Both the position numbers and the translations under genes were made by a program. The notes under the pieces are model-generated. The model searched no databases. It was not told where the DNA came from and saw only the letters and a program-made list of their open reading frames with translations. A stretch of DNA of 64,000 nucleotides from Streptomyces halstedii. Its GTDB lineage: Bacteria; Actinomycetota; Actinomycetes; Streptomycetales; Streptomycetaceae. Below are positions 6,998 through 21,675 of this stretch, in pieces (the first letter of the stretch is position 1; each line of letters starts with the position of its first letter). The DNA is taken from assembly GCA_000720535.1 (NCBI GenBank), contig JOAZ01000009.1, positions 1 through 64,000 on the forward strand. Reading direction: 5' to 3'.

Positions 6998-9672
6998 GCG
7001 GAACCTCCGGAGATGAGGGTGAGGAAGGCGTCCTCCAGGCGGCGGTGGGGTCCGACCCCGGTGACCGGTACGTCGAGCCGGACGAGCTCACTGACCAGGG
7101 CCGGGACGGTCGCCCCGTCCAGCCGGACGAGCAGGCCGCGCCCGTCGTCGGCGCGGACGGCGGAGCCGATGCCGGGCAGCGCGGCGACCTTCTCCGCGAG
7201 CGGCTCGGGCACCTCCTCGGCGGTGGTCACCAGGACCGTGTCGCCCGCCCCGGTGATCTCGGCGACCGGCCCGGCCTGGACGAGCCGGCCCCGGTCCATG
7301 ACGACGAGGTGGGTGCAGGACTGCTCGACCTCGGAGAGGAGGTGGCTGGAGACGATCACGGTGCGGCCCGCGGCCGCGTACCGGATCATCACGTCCCGCA
7401 TCTCACGGATCTGGGGCGGGTCGAGACCGTTGGTCGGCTCGTCCAGGATGAGCAGGTCCGGCAGGCCGAGCATGGCCTGGGCGATGGCGAGGCGCTGCCG
7501 CATGCCCTGGGAGTAGGTGCGTACGGCACGGGCCAGGGCGTCGCCGAGCCCGGCGATCTCCAGCGCCTCGTCCATGTGGGCGTCCTCGGCGGGGCGTCCG
7601 GTGGCCTGCCAGTACAGCTCCAGGTTGGCGCGGCCGGACAGGTGCGGGAGGAAACCGGCGCCCTCCACGAAGGAGCCGACCCGGGACAGCACGGGCGCCC
7701 CGGGCCGGATGGCGTGTCCGAAGACCCGGATCTCACCGGCGTCGGGGGTGATGAGCCCCATCAGCATCCGCAGGGTGGTGGTCTTGCCGGCGCCGTTCGG
7801 TCCGAGGAGGCCGAGGACCTGGCCCTTCTCCACCTGGAAGCCGAGATCGCGGACGGCGTAGCGGTCGGTGGCGCCCGCGTACTTCTTCGACAGGCCGGTG
7901 ATCCGCAGCGGTACCCGGGCGAGGTCCGGGTCGGGTGCGGGGGCGGCGGAACGCCTGCGGGTGGTGAGCAGCAGGGCGGCGGCGACAAGGAGCCCGGCGG
8001 CCGGAAGCCCCCAGGTCCACCAGGGCAGTCCGGTCGCGGCGGTCGTCACGGCGGGCGCGGTGGGGACGGTGAGGGGTCCGTCGAGGGACACGGTGTACGT
8101 GGCCGGCTCGGCGGGTGACGCGTAGCCGAGGTCGGTCGCGGACAGGACGAGGCGGAGCCGGTGCCCGGCCGCGATCTCGTGGTCGACGGCGGGCAGGGTC
8201 AGCTCGACGGGCTTGCCCTGCTCGCCCGCTGCGATCCGGTAGGGGGCGACGAGCTGGGACGGCAGCACCTGCTGCTTGCCGTCCGGGGAGACGTCGTACA
8301 CCTTGCCGAAGAGGACGGCGTCGCCGTGGTCGGCCTTGACGTTCACGCGGACGGTGGGTGAGCCGGTGACGCGTAGCGGTGCGTCCAGCGGGGCGGAGTC
8401 GTAGCGCGCGTACTGGCCGGGGAAGTCGAGGGAGAGCCCGACGCCGAGGGACGACAGCTGGGAGAGCCCGCCGCCGATGCCGGGCAGGGCGGAGACGGAG
8501 GGCGGGTTGGCCCCGGCGGGGTTGCGGACGGTCTGGGTGCGCCGCCCGTCGAGGGCGAAGCGCTCGCCGCCGCTGTGCAGCCCCGGGTAGACGGCACCGT
8601 CCGCACCGCGCATGAGGGCGGCCCCGTCGGTGGAGTCGACGCCGCCGGTGCGGGTGACCCGGAAGGCGGGCCCGGTGTCGGCGCCCTTGTCGTCCTTGAG
8701 GTAGCGGTCGAACCACTGGCCGATGCGGTGCTGGACGCGGTCGGCCTCCATGTCCCCGCCGTCGTGCCCGCCGGAGATCCAGTCGACGGAGACGGGGGCG
8801 CCGTTGCCCCGGATAGCGCGGGCCATGGCGTCGGCCTGCCCGAGCGGGAAGAGGGAGTCGCTCTGGCCCTGGACGATGAGCGCGGGAACGTCGATACGGT
8901 CGGCCACGGCCACGGGGGAACGTTCCGTCAGGAGCGCCCGCGCGGCCTCGTCCGGCTTACCGTCGACCGCGACCCGCTCGTACATCGCGCAGAGGCTCTT
9001 CTCGAACTTCTGGCAGCCGCCGCCGGTCGTGACGAAGATCCCGGCCCAGAGCTTCTTGAACACCCCGTCGGGGAACAGGGCCTCGGCCAGGTCCCAGTAG
9101 GTGATCACCGGGGCGACGGCGTCCACCCGGGGGTCGTGTCCGGCGGCCAGCAGCGACACGGCCCCGCCGTAGGAGGACCCGGTCACGCCGACGCGCGGGT
9201 CGCCCTTCGCGTCGAGCTGTACGTCGGGCCGGGTGGCGAGCCAGTCGATGAGCCCGGAGACGTCCTTGACCTCGCCGTCGGCCGCGTTGAGGCCGATCTC
9301 CCCGGTGGTCCTCCCGAATCCGCGCGCGGACCAGGTCAGCACGGCGTACCCGTCGGCGGCCAGCTTCTCGGCCTGGGCGCGTACGTCGTCCTTGCTGCCG
9401 CCGAAGCCGTGCCCGATGAGCACGGCGGGCCGGGGCCGGCCGGGGTCGCCGCCGGTGAAGTACGAGGTGTCGACGGACACCCCGTTCATCGGCATCATCC
9501 GGTCCTCGCGGTGCACGGACGGTGTGCTGTCGTCGGCCACGGCGGCCCAGGTGCCGGCACCCGCGAGCAGGACGAGCACGGCGACGAGCGCGGCCCACCT
9601 GCCCGGGGTGCCGGGCAGCCGGACCCGGGCGCGGGGCAGCCGGGCACGCCACCGGGAAGTCGGAGTCTCCAT
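6994..9672 (-). CDS. Membrane-tethered serine hydrolase fused to ABC transporter ATPase
   Basis: An 892-residue four-part protein. A membrane anchor (about 25-46) is followed by an S15/CocE-type alpha/beta hydrolase (about 60-330) with nucleophile motif GSSYG (Ser167), acid near QSDSLF (Asp272) and His303 in SGGHDGGD. Next is a PepX-C-like beta domain (about 430-530), a second transmembrane helix (about 550-570), and a complete ABC ATPase (590-892) with GPNGAGKT, YSQGMRQRLAIAQ and LILDEPTNGLD. The predicted topology places the hydrolase outside and the ATPase inside. Similar fusions occur in Streptomyces, but I know of no established function. It likely exports and then trims, or senses, a peptide or ester. 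Paired with the permease that follows. Confidence 0.85.
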   Translation of the reverse strand: METPTSRWRARLPRARVRLPGTPGRWAALVAVLVLLAGAGTWAAVADDSTPSVHREDRMMPMNGVSVDTSYFTGGDPGRPRPAVLIGHGFGGSKDDVRAQAEKLAADGYAVLTWSARGFGRTTGEIGLNAADGEVKDVSGLIDWLATRPDVQLDAKGDPRVGVTGSSYGGAVSLLAAGHDPRVDAVAPVITYWDLAEALFPDGVFKKLWAGIFVTTGGGCQKFEKSLCAMYERVAVDGKPDEAARALLTERSPVAVADRIDVPALIVQGQSDSLFPLGQADAMARAIRGNGAPVSVDWISGGHDGGDMEADRVQHRIGQWFDRYLKDDKGADTGPAFRVTRTGGVDSTDGAALMRGADGAVYPGLHSGGERFALDGRRTQTVRNPAGANPPSVSALPGIGGGLSQLSSLGVGLSLDFPGQYARYDSAPLDAPLRVTGSPTVRVNVKADHGDAVLFGKVYDVSPDGKQQVLPSQLVAPYRIAAGEQGKPVELTLPAVDHEIAAGHRLRLVLSATDLGYASPAEPATYTVSLDGPLTVPTAPAVTTAATGLPWWTWGLPAAGLLVAAALLLTTRRRSAAPAPDPDLARVPLRITGLSKKYAGATDRYAVRDLGFQVEKGQVLGLLGPNGAGKTTTLRMLMGLITPDAGEIRVFGHAIRPGAPVLSRVGSFVEGAGFLPHLSGRANLELYWQATGRPAEDAHMDEALEIAGLGDALARAVRTYSQGMRQRLAIAQAMLGLPDLLILDEPTNGLDPPQIREMRDVMIRYAAAGRTVIVSSHLLSEVEQSCTHLVVMDRGRLVQAGPVAEITGAGDTVLVTTAEEVPEPLAEKVAALPGIGSAVRADDGRGLLVRLDGATVPALVSELVRLDVPVTGVGPHRRLEDAFLTLISGGSA

Positions 9673-10653: not shown

Positions 10654-11034
10654 GGGCTCGTCCCCGCTGACGCGCGGGGCAGGTGGTGTCGGCGGTCTCC
10701 TCGTTCTCGCCGGGAGGGCCATCCCCGCGTCGCGGGGAGCGGGAGGGGCCGGTCGTCGTCCGGGCCCGTCGCATAGGGGCATTCCCGCGTGGGGGCATTC
10801 CAGCGGGGGGGCATTCCCGCGTGGGGCATTCCCGCGTGGGCGGGCAGCAGCGCGTGAGATACACCCTCACGACCACCCCGAAGGGTTCATCCCCGCATAC
10901 GCGGGCGGCAGGCACTCGGCGTACGAGGTCGCCGTCGAGCAGGGGGGTCCATCCCCACGCATGCGGGGAGCGGGCCTTGGTGCGGTGAAGGAGCAGCACG
11001 TCCGCAGGACCATTCCCGCATCGGCGGGAAGCGG
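10654..11034 (-). CRISPR. Decayed CRISPR array 0, no leader
   Basis: Six degenerate units begin at 10654, 10715, 10775, 10883, 10945 and 11006. Each keeps the core ATCCCC/ATTCCC...GCGGG of the intact repeats further right. The gaps between them are 32, 32, 32, 33 and 32 bases, that is, the spacer length of the intact arrays, so this is a true former array and not chance. Orientation matches the other arrays (minus strand). No copy of the shared leader is present on its right side (11035-11163). Confidence 0.75.
10775..10850. repeat. Short tandem expansion inside a CRISPR repeat
   Basis: One repeat of the decayed array has grown to about 76 bases by tandem copying of a 15-19 base unit, GGGGCATTCCCGCGTGG, present about four times with small changes. 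The end of the unit, GGCAGCAG, still marks the original repeat boundary. Slippage on GC-rich half repeats is the simplest cause. Confidence 0.7.
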
Positions 11035-11922: not shown

Positions 11923-12745
11923 TCGTTCATCCCCGCTCAAGCGGGGGGACAGGACACGCTCAACTACGCCGACTTTCAACGGTCGGGGCCATCCCCGCGT
12001 GAGCGGGGAGCAGCAGGAAGCCCCGCGCCCGGAGCGCTTCGGCTTCGGGACCACCCCCGCATGCGCGGGGAGCAGCACATCCGCAAGTGCCCTTCCACGG
12101 CGGGATCGGGACCATCCCCGCGTGCGCGGGGAGCAGGGGAGGTTGGCGAGCAGCCCGGTCACCGCGGTGGGACCATCCCCGCGTGCGCGGGGAGCAGCGA
12201 TCTCCTCGTAGAAGCCCCAGCGCAGCGGGGGACCATCCCCGCGTGCGCGGGGAGCAGCTGGGGCTGCTGTTCGCCCCGTTCGCCCTGTTGGGACCATCCC
12301 CGCGTGCGCGGGGAGCAGCGCCTGGCCGCGCTCGGTCTGCTGTCCCGGGCGGGACCATCCCCGCGTGCGCGGGGAGCAGTCGGCGCCGAGCGGCCCGGTG
12401 CGCTTGATCTTGGGACCATCCCCGCGTGCGCGGGGAGCAGAGGTTCCGGACGTGGACGAGGGTGGGGCCGGAGGGACCATGGCCGCGTGCGCGGGGAGCA
12501 GTCGGGCTGGGTGGCGGCGATGTCTCCAAGGTGGGGACCATCCCCGCGTGCGCGGGGAGCAGGCGCAGTGCACGAGGCGCACTTCGCCGCGAACGGGACC
12601 ATCCCCGCGTGCGCGGGGAGCAGGTCGAAGGTCACCCGTGGCCTTCAGCACCTCGGGGACCATCCCCGCGTGCGCGGGGAGCAGATGCCCTTCGGCTGCC
12701 CGCCCGTCCCGGTTCCGGGACCATCCCCGCGTGCGCGGGGAGCAG
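11923..12745 (-). CRISPR. CRISPR array 1, type I-E-like, 14 repeats
   Basis: Fourteen 29-base repeats on a 61 bp period, with 13 spacers of 31-33 bases. On the plus strand the repeat opens GGGACCATCCCCGCG and closes CGCGGGGAGCAG; CCCCGCG/CGCGGGG form a seven-base stem. Read on the minus strand it ends GGGGATGGTCCC, equivalent to the E. coli I-E repeat with an eight-base crRNA handle, so transcription is leftward from the leader at 12746. The leftmost repeats (11923, 11985, 12047) are the most degenerate, as expected for the leader-distal end. The repeat at 12473 has CC changed to GG. No cas gene adjoins. Confidence 0.97.
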
Positions 12746-12835
12746 ACTCCGTGACCAGCGGGTCTACCGGCGCGGCTGGTCATTCTGAAGCACTTTCACC
12801 AACTCCGGCAATACGCACAAAAGACCCATCTTGAC
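12746..12835 (-). promoter_or_regulatory. CRISPR leader 1
   Basis: About 90 bases directly right of the last repeat of array 1 are conserved in four places in the window. Shared landmarks are GACCAGCGGGT, TCATTCTGAAGCACTTTC and a CGCA-A-rich end. The copy lies on the promoter side of the array in minus-strand reading. It would contain the array promoter and the integration signals for Cas1-Cas2. Confidence 0.85.
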
Positions 12836-12900
12836 GAACCCCCTACCTTCGGAGAGCCAGCCTAGCCAAGCTCTCGCCGCCGATCACCAGTTGCCAGGCC

Positions 12901-16401: not shown

Positions 16402-16980
16402 GCACCCATTCCCGCGTCACGCGGGGAGCAACGCGAGCTCCTGCTCGACGGAGCCGCCGCCACGGGACCATCCCCGCATGCGCGGGGAGCAGCACACGGG
16501 CCTGTGCTTCCTGGTCATCCCGCTGGGACCATCCCCGCGCGCGCGAGGAGCAGGCCACATACCGGCGAGGCGCCCCCTACATAGCGGGACCACCCCCGCA
16601 TACGCGGGGAGCAGGCCACCGGCTACGGCAGCGTCTTCACATTCTGGGGTCCATCCCGGCGGCGCGGGAAGCAGCCGGTCAGGCGGCCAGTTTTACCGAT
16701 GCAGTCGGGACCATTCCCGCGTGCGCGGGAAGCAGAGGCTTCCGGCGATCGTGATGGACCTCGACACGGGTCCATCCCCACGTGCGCGGGGGAGCAGCCG
16801 TTACCCAGGGCCTTGCCCATCGTCGTCAGGGGACCATCCCCGCGTGCGCGGGGAGCAGGCGCGCAGCACCAAGTGGTAGCCGCCGGTGGCGGGGCCATCC
16901 CCGCGTGCACGGGGAGCAGCCGTCGGCCGACGCCCGTTGGTGTCACCTCTGGGGACCATCCCCGCGTGCGCGGGGGGCAG
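16402..16980 (-). CRISPR. CRISPR array 2, 10 repeats
   Basis: Ten repeats start at 16402, 16464, 16525, 16586, 16647, 16707, 16768, 16830, 16891 and 16952, separated by nine spacers of 32 bases. The repeat is the same family as array 1 but varies more; several left-hand copies differ at 3-6 positions and two carry a one-base insertion. Orientation is leftward from the leader at 16981. The spacer at 16675-16706 resembles the leader (see findings). No cas gene adjoins. Confidence 0.96.
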
Positions 16981-17071
16981 ACTCCGCGACCAGCAAGTTT
17001 ACCGGCGCAGTCGGTCATTCTGAAGCACTTTCGCCGACTCCGGCATTACACGCAAAAGACTCAACGCGGAC
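16981..17071 (-). promoter_or_regulatory. CRISPR leader 2
   Basis: Second copy of the shared leader, with GACCAGCAAGTTTACCGG, TCATTCTGAAGCACTTTC and CGCAAAAGACTCAAC. Similarity to leader 1 continues a further 40 bases rightward (GACGAACC...CGG..GCCAGCCT), farther than to leaders 3 and 4. Confidence 0.85.
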
Positions 17072-17251
17072 GAACCTTCCTTACCTCGGGGGCCAGCCTA
17101 AGGGCTGCCCCGTTGACCACCGGCCATGCAGGAACCCCCATAGCCAGAATTAGAGCCTTCCGTTCGGATCAGCACTCGCAGCGACTCAGGCGGCGAGCAG
17201 TCATCGCCGCCCTTATCCGGCTAGCCAAATGACGCGGTCTAGGCTGATCGA

Positions 17252-18069: not shown

Positions 18070-18816
18070 GCGCCGCCGAGGGACGGGGCCTACTGCTTCC
18101 CGGTCCTGCCGTCGTACACCCTTACCCACCAATGGCTGCGCGAGCTGACCCGTTTCGGCAGCCGGGGCGGACTTGTGGCAGTCCACGTGCGGCTTGAAGA
18201 TGCCCAGGACGTGTTGGTCGGACGTTATGCCGACCGGGCACGGGACGCCCAGGCCACCGTCTCCGCGTCAGAGGCGGTGCGGCGGATCGCGGCGTTGGAG
18301 GACCCTCGCGGATGGGAGGTGTTCGTCCCCCGGGCGATCCGGCCGCGTGAGGTGCACCGGATTCGCACCGCGCCGCAGGTCGCGGGCTGGCGGTATCTGC
18401 CGGACGCGCACGGCGTGCGCCCCTGCACCTGTTTCGGATGCCGTGTGCGCGGCGGGTACGGAGCGCGGCGCCTGCGCGAGCGGTTGCCGCATCCGCTGGA
18501 TGGGCCGCCCCCGCCCGTCAAGGTGCTGCTCGCCCGCGTCGCAGCCGGTGACCCCGGGGACCCAGCCGCGCTGCGAGAGGCACTGCACTGGTTCGGTATG
18601 CGTCGGCGCGGCCCCCTCGCCCAGTTGAGCCGTCTCGCCACCCACCCCGACCCCGGGGTACGGGAGGGCTTGGTGTGGGCGGTGGCCCCTTGGTCCACCC
18701 CAGGGGTCACCGAACTGCTCGACGGCCTCGCCGACGACCCGCACTCACACGTCCGAGAGGCAGTGGAAGCAGTCCGTGACGCAGTGGCCACTGCTCCCCT
18801 GGAACAGATCGTCTAG
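18070..18816 (+). pseudogene. 5'-truncated gene, HEAT-repeat-like C-terminus
   Basis: Gene-like sequence in frame begins before any start codon: GAYCFPVLPSYTLTHQWLRE precedes the first in-frame GTG at 18175. The usable part continues with VRLEDAQDVLVGRYADRA, a WEVFVPRAIRPREVHRIR block, a CTCFGCRVRG cysteine cluster and a C-terminal HEAT-like region (LSRLATHPDPGVREGLVW, LADDPHSHVREAVEAVRD). An in-frame stop at 18019 lies in the transposase remnant. A product of 213 residues from GTG 18175 is possible but lacks the natural N-terminus. I do not recognise a function. Confidence 0.6.
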
Positions 18817-19412
18817 GCCCGGGTCGGTCGGGGCGCGGGCAGGTCCACCGGCGCCTCCGTCGGCAGGAGGTCCGCAGCCCGGTCCCGCTGCCCCGCCCTG
18901 AGCAAGCCGTGCACCTCGCGGGCCAGTGGTGTCACATCGCGGATCGACACCGTCCACTCGTCGGCGTACCTCCTCGCCGCCTCACCGGCCAGCCCGAGTT
19001 GCAGCGACCGGTACGGCAGCGGGTTCAAGTCCATGTCCCGTTCCGGGTCCCACTGCACCCGGGCCGGAGCGGCCCGCAGGCTCCGCTTCCAGGTGGCCTC
19101 GTCCTCGTGGACGTCACGCACGTAATGGGACAGCTCCGCGTGCTCCAGCGCCCAGGCGAGTCCCGCCCGCTCAACCTCGACGGCAAGCACGACCTCCTGC
19201 CCCTCCTTCGTACCCCACCCGCAGCGGTACATCATCCACAGGAAGCTGGGTTTGACCCAGGTCATCCGATCCCGCTTCCAGGCTGCCGGGAATCGACCGT
19301 CCCGTACGGCGGGCAGCCCGATGGCGGGCGAGTACGCCTGATACACGGTGACCGTCGAAGCGGTGTACTGGGCGCGGATCTCGTAACGGGGCGTTGCCAC
19401 CTGGACGTTCAT
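18813..19412 (-). CDS. DUF4291 family protein
   Basis: A 199-residue protein matching the DUF4291 pattern: EIRAQYTASTVTVYQAYSP, FPAAWKRDRMTWVKPSFLWM and a central W-x-T-K-x-GQE-x-VLAVEVER segment. The function of the family is unknown; the fold is sometimes grouped with ADP-ribosyl-type enzymes, which I cannot verify here. It is convergent with the truncated gene, the two stops overlapping. Upstream, at 19413-19457, lies the edge of a DUF397 remnant. Confidence 0.8.
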   Translation of the reverse strand: MNVQVATPRYEIRAQYTASTVTVYQAYSPAIGLPAVRDGRFPAAWKRDRMTWVKPSFLWMMYRCGWGTKEGQEVVLAVEVERAGLAWALEHAELSHYVRDVHEDEATWKRSLRAAPARVQWDPERDMDLNPLPYRSLQLGLAGEAARRYADEWTVSIRDVTPLAREVHGLLRAGQRDRAADLLPTEAPVDLPAPRPTRA

Positions 19413-19457
19413 ACGCCCCAGGATGTTGGACGCTCACACGCCCGGCACCTCGTTTTC

Positions 19458-19590
19458 TTACGCGGGAAGGTTCGCCTTCAACTCGTTGACGAAGGCAGAC
19501 CAGGCCGACGCCCTGAACACGAGCACCGGTCCCTGCGGGCGTTTGCTGTCTCGGACCTCACTTATCCCTCTCGGTGCTGGCACCGCCACC
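19458..19590 (-). pseudogene. XRE-DUF397 remnant, copy 3 (most decayed)
   Basis: In minus-strand reading the first codons of the XRE gene (VAVPAPR) run directly into the last third of DUF397 (VRDSKRPQGPVLVF, SAWSAFVNELKANLPA, stop at 19458). Nearly all of both genes has been deleted, leaving a fused scrap. The 5' edge of the scrap is continuous with the terminal repeat of array 3: the XRE start ATG has become GTG inside the repeat sequence. Compare copy 1 (20491-21535) and copy 2 (19892-20250). Confidence 0.8.
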
Positions 19591-19793
19591 CCCGCGTGCG
19601 CGGGGAGCAGTCAAAACCGACGGTGCTTTCTCCGGTGCTGCCGGGTCCATCCCCGCGTGCGCGGGGAGCAGTCGGTGGTGGCTTCGCCGTGGTCGGCGCG
19701 GACGGGTCCATCCCCGCGTGCGCGGGGAGCAGCGCTCGCCCCCATCGTTCTCGGTCTGCTGGTTGGGTCCATCCCCGCGTGCGCGGGGAGCAG
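19582..19793 (-). CRISPR. CRISPR array 3, 4 repeats
   Basis: Repeats start at 19582, 19643, 19704 and 19765, with three 32-base spacers. Three repeats open GGGTCC where arrays 1, 2 and 4 mostly have GGGACC. The left-most repeat is a hybrid: its outer end is XRE coding sequence (ACCGCCAC). Leader 3 follows on the right. No cas gene adjoins. Confidence 0.95.
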
Positions 19794-19880
19794 ACCGCGT
19801 GACCAGCGGGTTTACCAACGCGATCGGTCATTCTGAAGCACTTTCACCGACTCCGGCATTACACGCAAAAAACCCAACCT
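19794..19880 (-). promoter_or_regulatory. CRISPR leader 3
   Basis: Third copy of the leader, nearly identical to leader 4 (GTGACCAGCGGGTTTACC, TCATTCTGAAGCACTTTC, CGACTCCG, CCCAACCTGG). Its right end runs directly into the stop codon region of DUF397 copy 2, marking a duplication junction. Confidence 0.85.
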
Positions 19881-19891
19881 GGCTAGCTACC

Positions 19892-20107
19892 TTACGCGGA
19901 ACGGTCCGCCTTCACCTCGTTGACGAAGGCAGACCAGGCCGACGCCCCGAACACGAGCACCGGTCCCTGCGGGCGTTTGCTGTCGCGGACCGGGAGCACG
20001 CCGGGGAATCCGTCAGCGACCTCGACGCAGTCGCCGCCCTGCGTGTTGCTGTAGCTGGACCTGCGCCAGACGACGGCGCCGAGCCCGGGACGGAAGTCGG
20101 GAGACAC
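19892..20107 (-). CDS. DUF397 protein, copy 2
   Basis: A 71-residue DUF397 protein: WRRSSYSNTQGGDCVEVADG, then LPVRDSKRPQGPVLVFGASA and a charged end. DUF397 genes normally follow an XRE regulator with a DUF5753 domain and are thought to act with it as a regulator/antagonist pair, with roles in development and antibiotic production in Streptomyces. Here the partner XRE is an internal-deletion pseudogene overlapping the start. GTG start. Nearly identical to copy 1, indicating recent duplication. Confidence 0.8.
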   Translation of the reverse strand: MSPDFRPGLGAVVWRRSSYSNTQGGDCVEVADGFPGVLPVRDSKRPQGPVLVFGASAWSAFVNEVKADRSA

Positions 20108-20250
20108 AGTACCCCTCCTCGATGACGGAGCGGATCAAGTCGGCAGACGCTCGGGGCGAAAGCGCAAGGGCTTGCAACTGGTCAAGCTCCAAGGCGAACT
20201 CGGCCACGGTTCCAGGATGCTCCAACTTCCTCGGTGTGGGCACGGCAACC
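20013..20250 (-). pseudogene. XRE regulator remnant, copy 2 (internal deletion)
   Basis: The frame reads VAVPTPRKLEHPGTVAEFAL, joining the first eight codons of the XRE gene to its last 60 or so (LQALALSPRASADLIRS). In the intact copy these blocks are separated by about 235 codons, so the helix-turn-helix and most of the DUF5753 domain are gone. The join falls at a short shared stretch (around TTGGAGCAT / GTTGAGCAT). The start codon is lost: GTT replaces ATG where the terminal CRISPR repeat of array 4 begins. Confidence 0.82.
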
Positions 20251-20391
20251 CCCGCGTGCACAGGAGCAGTCGTTCACGTTCATCCTCCACGTCCCGATCC
20301 AGGGACCATCCCCGCGTGCGCGGGGAGCAGGCGATGGCGTGCCCGAGGAGCATGAGGGCGGCGGGATCATCCCCGCGTGCGCGGGGAGCAG
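20242..20391 (-). CRISPR. CRISPR array 4, 3 repeats
   Basis: Repeats at 20242 (degenerate, 28 bases, overlapping the XRE remnant start), 20302 and 20363, with two 32-base spacers. Orientation leftward from leader 4. The smallest array in the cluster. Confidence 0.93.
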
Positions 20392-20478
20392 ACTGCGTGA
20401 CCAGCGGGTTTACCAGCGCGATCGGTCATTCTGAAGCACTTTCACCGACTCCGACATTGCCCGCAAAATGCCCAACCT
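20392..20478 (-). promoter_or_regulatory. CRISPR leader 4
   Basis: Fourth leader copy, almost the same as leader 3. Its right end passes within about 15 bases into the stop codon of DUF397 copy 1, the same junction as leader 3 with copy 2. Confidence 0.85.
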
Positions 20479-20490
20479 GGTGAGGCTTCC

Positions 20491-20706
20491 TTACGCGGAA
20501 CGGTCCGCCTTCACCTCGTTGACGAAGGCAGACCAGGCCGACGCCCCGAACACGAGCGCCGGCCCCTGCGGGCGCTTGCTGTCGCGGACCGGGAGCACGC
20601 CGGGGAATCCGTCAGCGACCTCGACGCAGTCGCCGCCCGCCTGATTGCTGCAACTGGACCTGCGCCAGGCGGCGGCGCTGAGAGCGGCTCGGGAGAGGTC
20701 GGTCAC
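20491..20706 (-). CDS. DUF397 protein, copy 1
   Basis: A 71-residue DUF397 protein (WRRSSCSNQAGGDCVEVADG, RDSKRPQGPALVFGASAW), GTG start. It overlaps the 3' end of the intact XRE gene by about 95 bases in another frame, an unusually long overlap: the XRE frame simply has no earlier stop. Presumed regulatory partner of that XRE protein. Confidence 0.85.
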   Translation of the reverse strand: MTDLSRAALSAAAWRRSSCSNQAGGDCVEVADGFPGVLPVRDSKRPQGPALVFGASAWSAFVNEVKADRSA

Positions 20707-21535
20707 GATAGCTTTCCTTTGCTGCGGAACGGATCAGGTCGGCCGACTCCTCTGGCGGGAGCGCGAGAGCCTGCAAGTAGTCGAATGCTAAGGCGTATTC
20801 AGCCACTGTCGGAGCATGCTCAACCAGTTCACCAGAGTACGAACTCTCCAGGTAGGCGACATCCGGACGGTCGAGGAACGACAACACCGTGGCCGAACCG
20901 TTCAGAAACGTGTGCTCACCCTGATCAAAAGGCAGCACTTGCAGGACGACATGCTGGAACTCTCCCGTAGCACGCAGGAGCCGTTCCATCTGCTCCCGCA
21001 TGGTCGCCCGGCTGCCGACACGTCGTCGCAGTACGGCTTCATCCAGGATGGCCCAGAGAACGGGGGCGCCGCTCTCGCCGAGAATGCCCTGCCGAGCGAG
21101 CCTCGCCGCCAGCAACTCTTCGACTTTGCTGTCCTCCCGAGGGCGAGCCACACCCAGCAACGCCCGCCCGTAAGCCTCGGTCTGGAGTAGGCCCGGGACC
21201 GTGTGGGCCATGTACTTACGGATCTTGCTCGCCTGCGGCTCCAGATTCACGTACCGCCGGGCCCAGTCCGGGATCGGTGTCCGGACCACGTGCTGCCACA
21301 GGTCCAGCAGGTCCCCGTCCGCCTTGAGCAACCGGTCGAGTGCCTGGGCCACGTCCGGAACCGGTGTCTCGTTGCCGAGCTCGAACTGCGCGATGCGGCT
21401 GTGCGCGATCGGGATCCTGTCCCCCAACTCCCGCTGTGTCCAGCCCGCCTTCGTCCGGAACTTGCGGAGCATCGACCCGTAGAGCGCCGTGAGCGACTGC
21501 GTCGGGTCGAGCTTCTTCGGTGCGGGCACTGCCAT
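20612..21535 (-). CDS. XRE-family regulator with DUF5753 domain, intact copy 1
   Basis: A 307-residue regulator. The N-terminal helix-turn-helix (about 17-75) includes LRKFRTKAGWTQRELGDRI and SRIAQFELGNETP. The DUF5753 domain (about 95-280) has the typical ARRYVNLEPQASKIRKYMAH, VPGLLQTEAYGRALLG and FLDRPDVAYLESSYSGELV blocks. Such proteins control development or antibiotic synthesis together with a downstream DUF397 protein. The ATG at 21535 lies in CCATCCCCG (21532-21540, plus strand), which is identical to nine bases of the CRISPR repeat. Copies 2 and 3 were joined to arrays exactly at that point. Confidence 0.88.
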   Translation of the reverse strand: MAVPAPKKLDPTQSLTALYGSMLRKFRTKAGWTQRELGDRIPIAHSRIAQFELGNETPVPDVAQALDRLLKADGDLLDLWQHVVRTPIPDWARRYVNLEPQASKIRKYMAHTVPGLLQTEAYGRALLGVARPREDSKVEELLAARLARQGILGESGAPVLWAILDEAVLRRRVGSRATMREQMERLLRATGEFQHVVLQVLPFDQGEHTFLNGSATVLSFLDRPDVAYLESSYSGELVEHAPTVAEYALAFDYLQALALPPEESADLIRSAAKESYRDRPLPSRSQRRRLAQVQLQQSGGRRLRRGR

Positions 21536-21675
21536 CCCCGTTTTCACTCGGCACCTCGTAAACAACTACACCTGGTGATCGTAGCGATACGGACCGATGC
21601 TCAGGGGTGGAACAACCCATGACCGATTCATGGCCACTGAAGGCCAGTCAGGTCGACTCATCGAGGAGTACGTAC

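Follow-up and report, generated by a model that had tools for sequence, protein, structure and literature searches.

Several arrays of clustered regularly interspaced short palindromic repeats (CRISPR) with the same leader are frequent within one genome, and their origin is rarely visible. Rearrangement of arrays by recombination has been described (extract of the review PMC8047081), and a minimal type I-E variant lacking cas1, cas2 and cas3, located beside STAND NTPases, has been described in Streptomyces (Shmakov et al. 2018, as reported in an extract of the review PMC12231136). In extracts of two papers that mention Streptomyces and DUF397 (PMC7159879 and PMC10364602), CRISPR appears as an editing tool or in a general mention, and our literature search found no account combining a CRISPR array, unequal crossing and a leader. 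Here we present a locus of Streptomyces halstedii in which two CRISPR arrays with their leaders lie between tandem copies of a gene pair coding for an XRE-family regulator and a DUF397 protein. It was examined within a stretch of 64,000 nucleotides (contig JOAZ01000009.1, positions 1 to 64,000; hereafter the window) belonging to a draft genome of 7.74 Mb in 105 contigs.

On the minus strand, from 21529 down to 18813, the locus reads XRE, DUF397, leader D, array D, shortened XRE (XRE'), DUF397, leader C, array C, an XRE/DUF397 scrap and a DUF4291 gene. The middle XRE'/DUF397 copy is a chimera of the copies, and the second leader and array are best explained by unequal crossing-over inside DUF397, not at a 9-bp identity between the repeat and the XRE start. 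The parts concerned are the following:

20612..21529, minus strand: intact XRE regulator (HTH_31 and DUF5753), 305 codons from the GTG taken as the likelier, conserved start (Pfam DUF5753 7.8e-53, HTH_31 2.1e-10; start comparison; open reading frame, ORF)
20491..20706, minus strand: DUF397 copy 1, intact (Pfam DUF397 4e-21; translation)
20392..20490, minus strand: leader D, its upstream end abutting the DUF397 stop codon (leader alignment; extension test)
20244..20391, minus strand: array D, with repeats at 20302-20330 and 20363-20391, two spacers, and a degenerate terminal repeat at about 20244-20269 (placed by eye) fused to the XRE start region (repeat search; spacer comparison)
20013..20243, minus strand: shortened XRE', 76 codons, roughly the first 8 and last 68 of XRE (ORF and start comparison; L026 counterpart 7354-7584, deletion identical)
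19892..20107, minus strand: middle DUF397 copy, chimeric, copy-2-like before 20083/20084 and copy-1-like after (Pfam 1.3e-22; breakpoint test)
19794..19891, minus strand: leader C, identical to leader D at 83 of 92 positions (leader alignment)
19584..19793, minus strand: array C, with three repeats, as many spacers, and a terminal repeat that runs into an XRE start (repeat search)
19458..19583, minus strand: scrap of 41 codons, in which the XRE start continues in frame into the second half of DUF397 (ORF)

The chimera became legible through a sister locus (L026) of Streptomyces sp. NRRL WC-3549, the only one of 43 stretches to encode a relative when 84,980 species genomes were scanned with short patterns of the XRE protein; the sister comparison accordingly covers one genome. 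Its order is an iolA-like gene, a small divergent gene, XRE, DUF397, leader, three repeats, a degenerate terminal repeat, shortened XRE, DUF397 copy 2 and DUF4291. Both loci are flanked by DUF4291, beyond which they diverge, and at the opposite end by an iolA-like gene of the methylmalonate-semialdehyde dehydrogenase family. The terminal repeat of L026 is fused to the XRE start region as in the window and the internal XRE deletion is identical; since both recur, the join and the deletion predate the split of the two lineages and, being old, are not assembly errors. The XRE gene in the intact position of L026 carries an in-frame stop at codon 12 counted from GTG. L026 has one array, and the window locus has one more.

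When the first and middle copies of the window were aligned with both L026 copies, 73 coding sites in the middle copy separated L026 copy 1 from copy 2. A single break at 20083/20084 fits 61 of these 73 sites, a fit equalled in none of 20,000 permutations: 30 of the 40 sites before the break are copy-2-like, and 31 of the 33 after it are copy-1-like. Identity of the middle copy to L026 copy 2 is 81.1% before the break and 79.2% after it; to L026 copy 1 it rises from 65.4% to 94.3%. The breakpoint is internal to DUF397, with the nearest repeat remnant some 160 bases away, and the copy-1-like end of the chimera continues into a leader, as copy 1 does. An earlier note, made from the window alone, had proposed that a single recombination at the 9-bp identity placed an array before XRE and that the unit was then multiplied by unequal crossing-over. 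Its observation was confirmed and its general process rightly guessed, in keeping with the one-array state of L026 and with the breakpoint, but the crossover now falls inside DUF397, and the 9-bp identity is left as a possible cause of the older join only. Because the one-array state is kept in a relative and the crossover point in the window, array multiplication by recombination of flanking genes can be read here from sequence.

A direct-repeat search and translations recovered the three XRE/DUF397 copies where the earlier note had placed them. The homology among the copies, which it had left to alignment, amounts to 83-94% over 100-300 bases without gaps: 83% between 19886-20185 and 20485-20784, and 94% and 91% between 19457-19557 and, respectively, 19891-19991 and 20490-20590. 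The first repeat with its leader likewise recurs at 92% (19765-19882 and 20363-20480). Chance is excluded by the lengths of these matches together with the identical junction in the separate L026 assembly. The nine-base sequence CCATCCCCG at 21532-21540 does match the CRISPR repeat. As the conserved XRE start, the GTG at 21529 is likelier than the ATG at 21535, two codons upstream, because homologues in two relatives (G015 and G025; 61-62% amino acid identity) align from GTGCCCGCACCG and lack the earlier ATG. The terminal repeat does meet the XRE front, but reaches the region just before the GTG and not the start codon itself; the internal deletion exists, but removes 229 codons (305 to 76 from GTG) and not 235; and the scrap, which does join the XRE start to the DUF397 end, spans 19458-19583 as an open in-frame fusion.

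By Pfam the intact copy is an XRE gene with DUF5753 followed by DUF397, and the same genome holds 45 DUF397 and 37 XRE matches, fragments included. A DNA search of 61 relatives with the intact pair matched six, the own genome included, with XRE found besides only in G015 and G025 and DUF397 alone in G022, G026 and G030. Upstream of the intact XRE, at 21540-21563, a short imperfect inverted repeat (GTTTAC...GAAAAC; GTTTTC...GAAAAC in L026) was seen by eye and is a possible operator. The DUF397 stretch also matches a small gene of Streptomyces phage Samy (L132 2486-3531), beside a gene annotated as a DNA-binding regulator; XRE-DUF397-like pairs may therefore occur on phages.

How the array first arrived can be approached from both of its ends. 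The exact 9-mer CGGGGATGG occurs in none of the three fused junctions, which read CGGGGGTTG (D), CGGGGGTGG (C) and CGAGGGTGG (L026); all three have G in place of its A, and two carry one more change. These sequences are only compatible with a joining of the leader-array to the XRE front through the likeness of CGGGGATGG to the repeat. For the leader end, comparison is offered by other arrays of the window, which follow on the same strand beyond the gene next to the scrap:

18813..19412, minus strand: DUF4291 gene, next after the scrap; L026 counterpart 7753-8349, 86% amino acid identity (profile match; comparison with L026)
16464..17075, minus strand: array B, nine repeats and a leader whose limit is approximate; XRE/DUF397 has no match up to about 1.5 kb from that leader (repeat and leader search; tblastn)
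11985..12840, minus strand: array A, 13 repeats and a leader whose limit is approximate; XRE/DUF397 has no match up to about 1.5 kb from that leader (repeat and leader search; tblastn)
10822..11034, minus strand: degenerate array E, four repeats with 6-7 mismatches each, no recognised leader (repeat and leader search)

More than 95 bases from the repeat, leaders A and B still resemble each other (none of 500 shuffles reaches their score), where leaders C, D and that of L026 carry the end of DUF397 instead. Over this outer part, A compares with C and with D at chance level (242 and 219 of 500 shuffles as good), B with C weakly (31 of 500), and B with D above chance (0 of 500), apparently through GTAAGGAAG, common to both at the edge. 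We infer that the leader-array block became attached at the stop of DUF397, possibly by way of the GTAAGGAAG match. That the array is a newcomer beside the regulator pair is suggested by G015 and G025, in each of which the XRE homologue is part of a single pair and the 15 kb read around it contains neither such a repeat nor an iolA-like gene nor DUF4291. A repeat search allowing up to 3 mismatches found no counterparts of arrays A and B in the L026 genome.

The window repeat, read on the minus strand, is CTGCTCCCCGCGCACGCGGGGATGGTCCC, 29 bases long and palindromic, and the spacers measure 31-33 bases. To judge from these dimensions, a 29-base repeat with unique spacers of about 32 bases, the arrays have the form of type I-E, the name being that used for E. 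coli. Among 27 spacers compared, the sole match between two at E 0.1 or better is 12 bases long; the second spacer of array D, outside this set and compared separately, matches no other. Spacer matches elsewhere within the window do not exceed 19 bases among the matches listed and were put down to chance. The four leaders have a common core, each beside a first repeat, and the core also precedes the repeat in other genomes. Within the own genome, a leader 20-mer with up to 3 mismatches finds these four and no others. Isolated repeat-like sequences of the same family, one or two at a time, were seen in another contig of this genome (C12; L046 1255-1344) and in the L026 genome (L047 1164-1192).

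The association of such leaders with XRE/DUF397 was surveyed with a 23-base leader core (up to 3 mismatches) in 26 genomes, namely the 25 with a CasC like that of the own-genome locus C4 (see below) and that of L026; a single core misses diverged leaders, so that absence holds for this sample. The survey gave 31 matches in nine genomes, and its reversed control one. Repeats adjoin all 31 leaders, checked in sets of 15, 11 (contig 23 of genome G363), 4 (own genome) and 1 (contig 37 of G363). XRE/DUF397, sought by tblastn within about 1.5 kb of 30 leaders (less at contig ends) and over the whole 13.6-kb contig for the last, stands beside 3 of the 31 only: C, D and L026, all at one orthologous locus. 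In other leader searches, an exact leader 20-mer had no match in the genome contigs searched; with up to 2 mismatches it had, in 199 genomes and besides the own genome, one match, in an apparent coding stretch without repeats. BLAST with leader C against 392 genomes matched G074 and G363 besides the own genome, and plasmids gave no leader match. The earlier note had seen CRISPR and the regulator pair as one duplicated module. As the association concerns a single locus of two genomes, with three of the 31 leaders, and no such repeat lies in the 15 kb around the G015 and G025 homologues, the link looks incidental; a general CRISPR/XRE module was rejected, the linkage recurring at a single orthologous locus and not at independent ones. 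We found no good evidence that the gene pair takes part in CRISPR function.

The history that best accounts for the locus as a whole, to which we give a probability of about 0.8, is that an array came to lie between two pairs and was later copied by an unequal crossover in DUF397, the gene pair being a passenger. Two XRE-DUF397 pairs in tandem would have received a leader-array block of the type I-E-like family between them, its leader end meeting one DUF397 stop and its terminal repeat running into the second XRE's start region. That second XRE would then have lost its 229 internal codons, giving the two-pair, one-array state seen in L026. In the window lineage, the two DUF397 genes flanking the array would have misaligned and undergone a crossover near 20083, with three pairs and two leader-arrays as the product, after which the last pair would have shrunk to the scrap of 126 bases and the spacers would have been replaced. 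The regulator pair would thus have supplied homology, and would not be a partner of CRISPR. Several observations weigh against this history. C, D and L026 have no spacer in common, whereas fresh duplicates would have identical sets. Twelve of the 73 informative sites misfit one crossover and the first window copy has mixed sites, so that gene conversions on a smaller scale took place as well. The scrap is closest to the middle copy (94% over 101 bases), though the model derives it from copy 2, which needs conversion or a further duplication. Finally, leader distances are nearly equal (C-D 83, C-L026 80 and D-L026 81 of 92), and the duplication could therefore be older than the separation of the species and have been lost again in L026.

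An alternative would be a one-step tandem duplication of the whole XRE-DUF397-leader-array unit at the 9-bp identity between the terminal repeat and the XRE start, the last array being lost afterwards. The 9-mer at the intact start, and fused junctions only one or two bases away from it, speak for such an event, which we nevertheless regard as unlikely: no array follows the last DUF397 in either the window or L026, so that an extra loss is needed, the exact 9-mer is in no fused copy, and the visible crossover lies inside DUF397. That the copies were made or misjoined by the assembler, in a 105-contig draft whose repeats are hard to assemble, has a negligible probability. This refutation, which the earlier note had itself allowed for, fails because the copies differ by 6-17% and the fused junction and the deletion recur in the separate L026 assembly.

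A functional module is very improbable. In it, a leader promoter would transcribe the array together with XRE'-DUF397, and Cas6e cleavage in the terminal repeat, whose G run would be a putative ribosome-binding site, would control downstream translation. The XRE' frame is indeed open for 76 codons in both species, with an N/S ratio of 0.42 over the whole frame (p 0.013, DUF397 overlap included), the scrap frame is also open, and a hairpin like that of the repeat can still form in terminal repeat C. However, p is 0.11 for the 41 XRE' codons outside the DUF397 overlap, and the signs of mini-ORF selection are weak; the terminal repeats of D and L026 do not fold as repeat hairpins, the homologous start codon in L026 is CTG and not GTG, and a sigma-70 scan, ill suited to Streptomyces, showed no promoter-like or terminator-like site. 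A fusion of CRISPR to a gene may thus mimic a functional module while being a by-product of duplication.

Turning to the system that might use the arrays, the own genome (G000) has two Cas7e loci, C41 and C4. C41 holds the only Cas1 match of the genome, and its repeat differs from that of the window. At C4 (L044 2270-13796), a derived I-E Cascade locus, casA, casB and casD score above the NCBIfam cut-offs, and casC and casE below those and above Pfam's. A protein of 1281 amino acids at C4 has a weak NACHT-like (NPHP3_N) match of 24.2 bits against a curated cut-off of 24.8, and a search for an adjacent STAND NTPase near the G074 locus gave a C-terminal match at 32%. Neither cas2 nor cas3 was recognised in the C4 ORFs scanned, no search aimed at these families having been made. 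One repeat-like sequence of C4 differs from the window repeat at 6 positions and from the C41 repeat at 11; a second, tried as window-like, was dropped, with 11 mismatches to the window repeat and 10 to the C41 repeat. In view of this repeat similarity and of the co-occurrence in G074 and G363, neither of which has a match to the Cas1 family, the window arrays may serve the apparently minimal I-E system at C4, a pairing that is uncertain. With a threshold of E 1e-70, CasC proteins like that of C4 were found in 25 of the 392 genomes of the genus, the own genome among them; such a CasC was also found on 17 plasmid records. Where about 19 kb around such genes was read, window-like repeat blocks were present at two of seven loci (G361 and G260); against the pairing, none was present at the other five (G255, G369, G156, G249 and G171). 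A further point against it is that the best CasC match to C4 in the L026 genome reaches only 36% and lies on the contig that carries its Cas1, where the system is presumably an ordinary I-E one; for want of a C4-like CasC, the L026 array may be an orphan. On a Streptomyces laculatispora plasmid (L133), casA, casB, casC, casE and an unnamed protein of 1246 amino acids lie side by side.

Plasmid records were matched widely by the array A stretch (11985-12745): 167 in all, 154 at 60-80% and 13 at 80-95% identity, the best 15 of the 167 covering the whole query. Streptomyces accounts for 140 of the 167, and 68 records match in at least 40 pieces; this or a similar I-E repeat is therefore common on Streptomyces plasmids. 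Against phages the same stretch matched 24 records (best E 4e-4), of which the best 20 cover at most 19% of the query, and the array C-D stretch matched four, on repeats or DUF397. No spacer target was read from the searches of the array A stretch (phages and plasmids) or the C-D stretch (phages), single spacers and array B not having been searched. Four evenly spaced I-E-like repeats occur in Saccharomonospora phage PIS 136 (L131 2524-2735), whose listed features name no CRISPR.

A dense set of leaders was found in G363, which has 18 on two contigs (11 on contig 23 and 7 on contig 37; L045, L058 and L117) and no Cas1 match. Each of the 11 on contig 23 precedes, in the same direction, a short array or a single repeat. 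Among 96 spacers, two families recur within contig 23, a trio and a pair with 28-32 identical bases. Two spacers are also common to contigs 23 and 37; they lie near the end of contig 23 and could stem from assembly overlap. This sharing suggests recombination of cassettes; because most spacers are unique, acquisition must also have occurred. It is conceivable, although doubtful, that this family multiplies by whole leader-array cassettes, through homologous recombination at repeats that flank them or lie inside them and not by spacer acquisition alone, with the window as one frozen event and G363 as an advanced state.

Set beside known systems, the intact pair resembles ordinary XRE-DUF397 pairs in that an XRE gene with HTH_31 and DUF5753 overlaps the DUF397 gene, and differs in having a CRISPR array between the copies and two of three XRE copies reduced. 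Like the minimal I-E variant of Streptomyces, as far as the extract of PMC12231136 describes it, C4 has casA-casE homologues and no cas1 at the locus, together with a protein whose weak NACHT-like match falls below the cut-off; unlike that variant, the window has arrays only, the C4 Cascade being on another contig. As in the array recombination covered by the extract of PMC8047081, duplication would have proceeded through misaligned homologous sequence, but there the repeats of one array recombine, and here flanking protein-coding paralogues do so, copying leader and array together. The locus thus appears to consist of known parts and to be an unusually readable record of CRISPR array duplication rather than a new immune-regulatory module.

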